A stretch of 33,731 nt of DNA from Melioribacter sp. (GTDB lineage Bacteria > Bacteroidota > Ignavibacteria > Ignavibacteriales > Melioribacteraceae), in NCBI GenBank assembly GCA_003155655.1, contig PMDS01000064.1, positions 23,671-57,401 of the forward strand, given 5' to 3'. The position numbers and the translations under genes were made by a program. The first letter of the stretch is position 1, and every line of letters starts with the position of its first letter. Positions 4,914-10,562 of the stretch are shown here, one piece after another. The notes under the pieces are model-generated. The model was not told the DNA's origin. It searched no databases and was given only the letters and a program-made list of their open reading frames with translations.

Positions 4914-5540
4914 TTACTTAGAATACAATTCAACAATTAATTGTTCATTAGCATTCAATGGAATGTCTTCTCTTTCCGGAATATTTAGAAAAGTACCGGA
5001 TAGAGTAGCTTTATCTACGGACAACCAATTATAGACGTTATCTTTTGTTCTTCTTAATGAATTATGGATTGCGTCCAGTTTCTTGCTTTTATCTCTAACA
5101 GCAATAACTTCTCCGGCAGCAAGAGAAAAAGAAGGAATATCAACAACCCTGTTATTTACAGTAAAATGACGATGAAGAACCAACTGACGTGCAGCTTTTC
5201 TAGAAGCTGCAAAACCCAGGCGATATATTGTATTATCTAATCTTCTTTCAAGAAGTTTGATCAAGTTTGCGCCTGTAACACCTTTCTGATGAATTGCTCT
5301 ATCGAAATAATTGTGAAATTGAGTTTCTTGTAAACCGTAAATTCTTTTTACTTTTTGTTTTTCTCTAAGCTGCACACCATATTCCGAAAATTTAGCTCTG
5401 CGCGTCAAACCATGTTGACCGGGTGCATAATTCCTCTGTTCAAGAGGGCATTTTTCGGAAAGGCATTTGGAGCCTTTTAAAAATAATTTTTGTTTTTCCC
5501 TTCTGCACAATCTGCAACTAGGGCCAGTGTATCTTGCCAT
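4914..5540 (-). CDS. rpsD: 30S ribosomal protein S4 (zinc-binding type)
   Basis: Primary 16S rRNA binder that nucleates 30S assembly, and the alpha-operon translational repressor in E. coli. 208 residues. Cysteines 9, 12, 26 and 31 form the CxxC...CxxxxC zinc site seen in the Thermus-type protein. The S4 RNA-binding domain follows (about 97-160, [30 protein letters not shown]). Start ATG with AGGAG nine bases upstream; 15 bases after rpsK. Whether it also autoregulates this operon cannot be seen from the leader. Confidence 0.98.
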
Positions 5541-9519: not shown

Positions 9520-10032
9520 TTACAAATTGAATAACTCGGTAACTTTCATTCCGCGTTTGTGAGCCATTGCTCTTGCATCAATTAAATTTAACAACGCATT
9601 TAATGTTGCTTTAACCTGATTGTGCGGATTACTTGAACCGAGAGACTTTGTCAAAATATCTTGAACACCAGCTGCTTCCAAAACTGCTCGAACGCCGCCG
9701 CCGGCAATCAATCCCGTTCCGGGAGTTGCAGGTTTTAACAGAACCGAACCAGCGCCAAATTTTCCAATAATCGAATGAGGAATTGTTCCTTTAAGAAGAC
9801 TAACTTTATATACGTTCTTCTTTGCATCATCAATGCCTTTCGAAATTGCATCAGTAACTTCGTTTGCTTTTCCAAGACCAACGCCTATATGTCCTGAACC
9901 ATCTCCAACAACAACAATTGCATTAAAGCTGAAACGGCGTCCGCCTTTTACAACTTTTGCAACTCTATTGATGTGAACAATTTTTTCTTTTAGATTCTCA
10001 AGACCCGATACTTTTTTGTACTTGAAATTCAA
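9520..10032 (-). CDS. rpsE: 30S ribosomal protein S5
   Basis: Small-subunit protein important for decoding accuracy and mRNA unwinding. 170 residues: the double-stranded RNA-binding part (about 19-85, [20 protein letters not shown]) and the C-terminal domain with [20 protein letters not shown] and [16 protein letters not shown]. Start TTG at 10032, with AAGGGAG seven bases before it. It is separated from rplR by 155 bases that contain a tRNA gene, unlike the usual tight rplR-rpsE junction. Confidence 0.98.
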
Positions 10033-10039
10033 TTTTTAA

Positions 10040-10046
10040 CTCCCTT
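10040..10046 (-). promoter_or_regulatory. Ribosome binding site fixing the TTG start of rpsE
   Basis: AAGGGAG on the minus strand, seven bases before TTG at 10032. The gene needs its own site because a tRNA precedes it and coupling to rplR is impossible once the tRNA is cut out. Confidence 0.8.
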
Positions 10047-10088
10047 GTTTACGTACTATTTAATCTTCAGTGAACCGTCTAATTCTTG

Positions 10089-10159
10089 CTGCCGGAAGAG
10101 GACTCGAACCTCTACAGACGCCTCCAAAGGGCGTTGTCCTGCCATTAGACGATCCGGCA
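10089..10159 (-). tRNA. tRNA-Gln (anticodon UUG)
   Basis: A full cloverleaf reads on the minus strand: acceptor TGCCGGA/TCCGGCA (7 bp), D arm GTCTAATGGCAGGAC, anticodon stem ACGCC/GGCGT with loop CTTTGGA (anticodon TTG, reads CAA and probably CAG), variable loop CTGT, and T arm AGAGG-TTCGAGT-CCTCT. The U1-A72 end pair and G73 discriminator are classic bacterial Gln identity elements. 71 bases without CCA; CCA is not encoded (CAA follows), so it is added enzymatically. It lies inside the spc operon, 28 bases after rplR and 56 before rpsE, in the same direction. Confidence 0.97.
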
Positions 10160-10187
10160 ATAAATTTAAATTCGCCGGAAGCACGGA

Positions 10188-10553
10188 TTAGACTTTAATT
10201 CCGCCTTCGCGAGCTCCATCTGCAACGGCTTTAACTCTTCCATGAAATTCATAGCCACTTCTATCAAAAACCGCTGTAGAAATTCCTAATTCTAGTGCTT
10301 TTTTTGCTAAAAGCTTACCTACTAATTTACTTTTGGAAACTTTCCCTTTACTGCCTTTTATTTCATCTAAAATTTCTTTTGATAAAGAAGAAGCCGAAGC
10401 TAATGTAACACCTTTTACATCATCAATCAGTTGAGCATGCATATTAACTGCACTTCGGTATACAGAAATTCGCGGACGTTCCGAAGTTCCTGATAATTTT
10501 TTACGAACTCTAATTCTTTTTCTTATTCTTCTTTTATTGTCTTTCAAAAACAT
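10188..10553 (-). CDS. rplR: 50S ribosomal protein L18
   Basis: Binds 5S rRNA together with L5. 121 residues with [20 protein letters not shown] and the C-terminal [23 protein letters not shown], both diagnostic. I place the start at ATG 10553 because AGGAG (10563-10567) is nine bases upstream; an in-frame TTG at 10559 is only three bases from that site. Fifteen bases after rplF; the stop is followed by a tRNA-Gln gene. Confidence 0.97.
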
Positions 10554-10562
10554 TTTCAATTT

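Follow-up and report, generated by a model that had tools for sequence, protein, structure and literature searches.

A conserved tRNA-Gln(UUG) gene between rplR and rpsE in the spc operon of Ignavibacteriota and its probable expression by read-through

Introduction

The spc operon of ribosomal protein genes is among the most conserved gene orders of bacteria. tRNA genes are known as parts of longer transcripts of the translation machinery; in rRNA operons with spacer tRNAs, the tRNA is excised from such a transcript, and in the tufB operon the tRNAs come first. According to the excerpt of PMC8046335 considered here, the tufB operon of Gammaproteobacteria contains four tRNAs (Thr, Tyr, Gly, Thr) together with tufB, an arrangement described there as highly variable; the same excerpt places tRNA-Trp in the secE operon on the model of the operon structure in Bacilli (PMC8046335).

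In open-licence PMC papers, no text naming a tRNA at the rplR–rpsE junction was found, which is weak evidence of absence. Such a gene, for tRNA-Gln(UUG), is present in the window, by which the whole analysed stretch of 33,731 nucleotides of Melioribacter sp. DNA is meant. Its structure, distribution, evolution and likely mode of expression are described below.

Results

Structure of the Locus

Genes of the S10, spc and alpha ribosomal-protein operons were found on the minus strand of the window (ten products tested). The gene rplR, encoding ribosomal protein L18 (123 aa; TIGR00060, 120 bits; PF00861, E 8.0e-39), is located at 10188..10559, and rpsE, encoding ribosomal protein S5 (170 aa, TTG start; TIGR01021, 218.8 bits), at 9520..10032, both TIGRFAM matches being above the cut-off. 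The upstream neighbour in the spc operon is rplF, encoding ribosomal protein L6 (10569..11105; TIGR03654, 231.5 bits), and the downstream neighbour is rpmD, encoding ribosomal protein L30 (9320..9508; TIGR01308, 79.2 bits); in all, eight more genes of the run were confirmed by profile, namely those for L6, L30, L15, SecY, MAP, RpoA, L17 and L16.

The gap between rplR and rpsE is 155 nt long and has three parts, all on the minus strand. A 28-nt spacer (10160..10187), the putative leader removed by RNase P, extends from the rplR stop codon to the tRNA; it is followed by the 72-nt gene of tRNA-Gln with anticodon UUG (10088..10159) and by a 55-nt spacer (10033..10087) up to the rpsE TTG, which would include the 3′ trailer of the tRNA and the leader of rpsE. 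A motif scan showed the Shine–Dalgarno-like sequence GGGAG before rpsE at 10040-10044. The tRNA-Gln is the sole tRNA called by ARAGORN in the window, with the anticodon ttg at position 33, and the Rfam model RF00005 matched 10089-10159 of the minus strand over its full length (positions 1-71 of 71), scoring 59.6 bits (E 1.2e-10) where the gathering score is 29.

ARAGORN, RF00005 and the flanking TIGRFAM matches thus bear out the sequence-only reading of this locus, according to which a complete tRNA-Gln(UUG) lies between rplR and rpsE in the same direction. Its span of 10089-10187 comprises the tRNA plus the upstream spacer, to which the minus strand, unmentioned there, has to be added. The absence of an encoded CCA, also pointed out in that reading, is true, since GCAA follows the acceptor stem, though it is ordinary in this genome: only 4 of the 37 tRNAs found in the window genome encode CCA, so that its lack is unremarkable. 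Among junction tRNAs, CCA is encoded in 29 of 109.

Distribution of the rplR–tRNA–rpsE Junction

The window's family and two sister families are designated f1–f3. A 301-base junction query, compared with 57 genomes, gave matches in 51, the window's own included; 30 of these were then read at the junction, and some others later. In all 30 loci (L002-L031, the window genome and 29 relatives from f1–f3), rplR, tRNA-Gln(UUG) and rpsE are found in that order. The junction tRNA-Gln(UUG) is present in 11 of 11 genomes of the same genus and in 50 of the 51 genomes of f1–f3 that were read, the exception being G023. Two genomes missed by the DNA query, G043 and G050, nevertheless contain it, and it is also present in the single-contig genomes G045, G047 and G164; G013 gave no match to the junction query, and its junction is outside the count.

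In the class as a whole, rplR was found in 285 of 294 genomes, and 40 sample loci were chosen among the matches listed. The junction tRNA is present in 21 of these loci and absent from 19; the sample overlaps the f1–f3 set and includes genomes picked for missing a DNA-query match, so that the fraction 21 of 40 does not estimate a frequency in the population. The comparison of the junction across related genomes that had been proposed together with the sequence-only reading was thus carried out at both levels, for f1–f3 and for the class. The assertion that rplR and rpsE are normally nearly adjacent agrees with the 19 sampled loci without a junction tRNA, where the two genes are separated by 7-53 nt in 15 cases and by 81-135 nt in the other 4. 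In L036, L037 and L052, the gaps measure 126-135 nt, and no tRNA was called in them. By family, the junction tRNA occurs in 8 of the 22 examined (f1, f2, f3, f8, f14, f15, f20 and f24) and is missing from 14; these 22 of 31 families are represented outside f1–f3 mostly by one or two genomes each, with f10-f13, f19, f23, f26, f30 and f31 left out.

A tRNA-pattern scan of public genomes, recognising only the window's type of tRNA-Gln, yielded at least 116 loci. Among those listed, both flanking genes accompany the tRNA in 87; in 3, which lie where the locus or contig ends, only rplR does, and in the other 26 neither gene is close by. According to NCBI taxonomy, the 87 junction loci listed belong to Ignavibacteriota (61), to unplaced Bacteroidota (23) or to records without a phylum (3), and the 26 non-spc loci listed belong to Rhodothermota (14), unplaced Bacteroidota (8), Latescibacterota (2), Acidobacteriota (1) and Pseudomonadota (1). 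This type of tRNA extends beyond the clade, and the spc position, among the matches listed, is found only in Ignavibacteriota or in loosely named records. Loci with the same type of tRNA-Gln away from spc in Rhodothermota and Latescibacterota include L108, L128, L136, L199 and other non-adjacent matches.

The tRNA lies on the same strand as both neighbours in 142 of 142 junction tRNA genes from 141 loci, which overlap in organisms. Such overlap is common to all junction sets; distinct junctions, counted by sequence, number 120.

Fold, Copy Number and Maturation of tRNA-Gln(UUG)

Across 52 distinct junction tRNAs, 14 of the 20 stem pairs were changed on both sides, with 99.8% of cells paired. 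The corresponding value in shuffles was 5.5, none of 500 shuffles being as high as 14, and slid controls gave at most 7. The fold of this tRNA-Gln is under selection. A chance cloverleaf is excluded by the full-length covariance match together with conservation in relatives and the compensatory changes.

The count of tRNA-Gln genes, suggested earlier as a check, was made with a tRNA-Gln model and 150 candidates per genome. In each of six single-contig genomes, it found one tRNA-Gln(UUG), located at the junction; the other tRNA-Gln has the anticodon CUG and is located elsewhere. In the window genome, 37 tRNAs were found, including one tRNA-Gln(UUG) at the junction and one CUG elsewhere (150 of 308 candidates scored). 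This list is incomplete, containing no Trp, Tyr or Ile, so that the uniqueness of the UUG gene rests also on two further searches: neither the junction-DNA query nor the tRNA-Gln model, with 150 candidates scored, revealed a second UUG gene in the window genome. As part of the read-through explanation discussed below, it is likely that the tRNA-Gln(UUG) is functional and, as far as found, the only one of the genome.

The window genome contains a gene of GlnRS (TIGR00440, 748.2 bits), and charging of the tRNA-Gln is predicted. RNase E/G is also encoded (TIGR00757, 483.5 bits). For RNase Z, the model TIGR02651 gave no match above the cut-off in 16 genomes, including the window's; 14 showed weaker matches, the best of 122.6 bits, and the match in the window genome is partial, with 26.8 bits. 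In the control genomes, the cut-off was passed in 9 of 14. The presence of a divergent RNase Z is possible. It was also observed that, with RNase Z not above this cut-off in the 16 genomes, 33 of the 37 tRNAs in the window genome are nonetheless without encoded CCA.

Among 8,810 codons in 35 ORFs of the window, CAA occurs 122 times and CAG 143 times; glutamine codon demand was dropped as an explanation, there being no striking bias between the two.

Evolution of the Slot

On a tree of L18 and S5, the distribution of the tRNA corresponds to 6 changes against 18.2 in shuffles, the included near-copies helping the clustering, and well-supported branches force at least 2. The tree is a quick one of 146 rows with modest support, 10 duplicate and 7 short rows having been dropped. 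The placement of the tRNA appears to be old within Ignavibacteriota.

The tRNA-Gln model was applied to 16 of the 19 class-sample genomes with a tRNA-less junction, G023 apart; in 14 of them it found a standalone tRNA-Gln(UUG) whose sequence is of a different type, and in G251 and G301, the best locus found with the model is a tRNA-Glu. In G023 (L056), the slot is empty, and an unlike tRNA-Gln(UUG) is found elsewhere in the genome. A remnant of the tRNA in its empty junction was considered and rejected, because the local alignment was no better than in shuffles, 256 of 500 scoring as high. The location at the junction is dispensable, given the empty slot of G023 and the 14 of 22 examined class families without the tRNA.

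Two further changes occurred in place. In the genus g18 (G028 and G299), an unlike tRNA-Gln(UUG) occupies the same slot (L057, 356-427; L064, 357-428), and in L201 the rplR–rpsE junction contains two tRNA-Gln genes, at 5174-5245 and 5343-5414, one with UUG and the other a near-copy reading CUG, apparently an in-place duplication yielding a new isoacceptor. The replacement in g18 and the duplication in L201 may point to a favoured slot or may have arisen by gene conversion and tandem duplication. By eye, the tRNA-Gln(UUG) in the slot of g18 resembles the CUG-type tRNA-Gln of relatives.

Signals Around the tRNA

A scan for sigma70-type promoters and terminators found neither in the 155-nt gap of the window. 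A Bacteroidota-like promoter is represented by TTTG, about 20 nt and TAnnTTTG, and this motif often accompanies the standalone tRNAs of the window genome. With its position restricted, the promoter score of the window fell below that of almost every shuffle (z -1.6, p 0.99). The mean z was 0.90 for standalone tRNAs, 9 of 34 reaching p<=0.05, and 0.17 for junction tRNAs, 6 of 108 reaching this level, which is about chance; one of the 109 junctions was left out here because 60 clean nucleotides upstream were not available. With a trained promoter model free of a position limit, 13 of the 34 standalone tRNAs and 5 of the 108 at junctions exceeded the threshold of 10.08. The window scored 6.99 with this model, above the junction mean of 1.03 and below the threshold. 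The best -7-like match of the window, from the motif comparison, stops 1 nt short of the tRNA, a distance too small for starting an intact tRNA. Both promoter tests are low-powered, as seen from the 13 and 9 of 34 standalone tRNAs that they recover. Terminator-like sites follow 13 of 35 standalone tRNAs versus 2 of 109 junction tRNAs.

The five junctions over the trained threshold are L039, L040, L137, L165 and L031, and in the position-restricted test L039 and L165 had p<=0.05 and L137 p 0.095; accordingly, the tRNA may be transcribed separately in some relatives. These promoter-like sites are situated upstream of the tRNA in junctions with long leaders. Within 60 nt before rpsE, a promoter-model match was present in 7 of 109 junctions.

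The distance from the rplR stop codon to the tRNA is 3-8 nt in 49 of the 120 distinct junctions and <=20 nt in 76; with leaders of 3-8 nt, a separate promoter could hardly be fitted in outside the coding sequence. On balance, the promoter and terminator tests point to read-through. An isolating promoter and terminator, named in the sequence-only reading as evidence against it, were sought in the window gap and not matched there by tests of which the promoter one has the low power stated above.

A Shine–Dalgarno-like motif precedes rpsE in 80 of 109 junctions versus 27.1 in shuffles, so that a separated rpsE message could be translated; in tRNA-less junctions, it was found in 9 of 19 versus 5.3 in shuffles. 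The whole 155-nt gap of the window folds no better than shuffles (z -0.81). The sequence CCGGC upstream of the tRNA in the window can pair with the 5′ acceptor strand, and this pairing is present in the centroid fold; a conserved switch formed by such an anti-acceptor hairpin was rejected, the 6-mer occurring in 3 of 109 junctions versus 0.86 expected.

Discussion

Expression by Read-Through and Alternative Explanations

The tRNA-Gln(UUG) is probably expressed by read-through from the spc operon and excised, its supply being tied to ribosomal-protein transcription. It would be transcribed within the spc ribosomal-protein message, in which RNase P would form the 5′ end of the tRNA by a cut a short way past the rplR stop codon. 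The 3′ end would be processed and CCA added, and the downstream rpsE message would be translated from its own Shine–Dalgarno sequence. Since the placement is common to many relatives, the tRNA-Gln is probably cut out of their ribosomal-protein messages. The sequence-only reading had also connected tRNA-Gln supply with ribosomal-protein output; as the sole tRNA-Gln(UUG) found sits here, this may reasonably be expected of transcription, with the reservation that the promoter test is weak. The splitting of the message by tRNA cutting and different stabilities of its halves, also put forward in that reading, are hypothetical. The placement may have persisted for one of two reasons: an essential single-copy tRNA can be expressed well enough from this site, or its coupling to ribosome synthesis is of use.

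That the gene is an artefact, namely a pseudogene, a chance cloverleaf or an assembly error, is extremely improbable in view of the full-length Rfam match, the compensatory changes and the conservation in other assemblies, including single-contig genomes. Independent expression from a non-consensus promoter of the tRNA's own, located in the 3′ end of rplR or in the spacer, which would make the embedding only positional, is unlikely. It would agree with the promoter-like sites that some long-leader relatives show (p<=0.05 for L039 and L165, p 0.095 for L137, five over the trained threshold), with the unrestricted window score of 6.99, above the junction mean, and with a model that misses most known standalone tRNAs (13 of 34 pass). 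Against it, no sigma70-like site is present in the window gap, the position-restricted z there is -1.6, leaders of 3-8 nt offer a promoter no space outside the coding sequence, and 6 of 108 junctions at p<=0.05 are about what chance gives.

Two other explanations concern the reason for the placement, and both are compatible with read-through expression. One of them makes a stronger claim, that the tRNA is kept mainly as a processing signal, its excision splitting rplN–rplR from rpsE–rplQ, which would differ in stability or translation. The conserved slot, its occupation by an unlike tRNA-Gln in g18 (G028, G299) and the common Shine–Dalgarno-like motif before rpsE accord with this; nevertheless, such motifs are seen where no junction tRNA is present as well (9 of 19 versus 5.3 in shuffles), the tRNA is absent from 19 of 40 sampled loci, 15 of which have gaps of 7-53 nt, and an essential single-copy tRNA would stay anyway. 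A role mainly as a signal is judged improbable. The other, a frozen accident, is a serious candidate, judged slightly more doubtful than not: the tRNA landed in the clade ancestor and stays as an essential single copy, without benefit from its location. Its clustered presence on the L18 and S5 tree (6 changes versus 18.2 in shuffles, with help from near-copies) fits such a history, as does the occurrence of relocation, seen in G023 with its empty junction and unlike tRNA-Gln(UUG) elsewhere; the in-place replacement in g18 and in-place duplication in L201 could instead mean a favourable slot, which they do not prove.

Read-through expression leaves room for a more speculative idea, a coupling between the translation of rplR and the excision of the only tRNA-Gln(UUG) that the clade has; this is quite unlikely. 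The footprint of a terminating ribosome reaches past the stop codon. With the rplR stop codon 3-8 nt before the tRNA, as in 49 of 120 distinct junctions, this ribosome would overlap the RNase P site and the acceptor strand; in the window, with its 28-nt spacer, coupling would be looser. The in-place replacement in g18 and the UUG/CUG pair in L201 fit selection for the slot. If the idea were true, the output of tRNA and the fate of the rpsE half-message would report on L18 translation, and ribosomal-protein synthesis would be linked to glutamine decoding by the locus itself.

A stable RNA gene inside spc across a broad clade would imply that the message is cut there or competes with tRNA processing. 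Being natural and widespread, it allows one to test whether stoichiometry changes when a ribosomal-protein message is split; it is also testable whether control of a sole tRNA together with the ribosomal proteins adjusts its supply to growth. The order rplR–tRNA–rpsE may, in addition, be a useful gene-order marker of many genomes of Ignavibacteriota.

Comparison with Known Systems

The spacer tRNAs of rRNA operons are similar to the junction tRNA in the proposed excision from a longer transcript, but there the flanks are rRNAs and not translated messages. As in the tufB operon, a tRNA and a gene for a translation protein are combined in one operon, in a cluster which, in the excerpt of PMC8046335, includes spc, and the tRNA and protein genes share a strand both in the window and in 142 of 142 junction tRNA genes; unlike the four tRNAs of the tufB operon given in that excerpt, one tRNA is located here between two ribosomal-protein genes inside spc. 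The tRNA-Trp of the secE operon, as assigned in the same excerpt, is likewise a tRNA gene in an operon of this cluster (PMC8046335), but the tRNA and the operon are different ones, and its position is not inside spc. tRNAs in protein operons are known from tufB and secE (PMC8046335), and what is new in the present case is a clade-wide and apparently sole tRNA-Gln(UUG) inside the spc operon.
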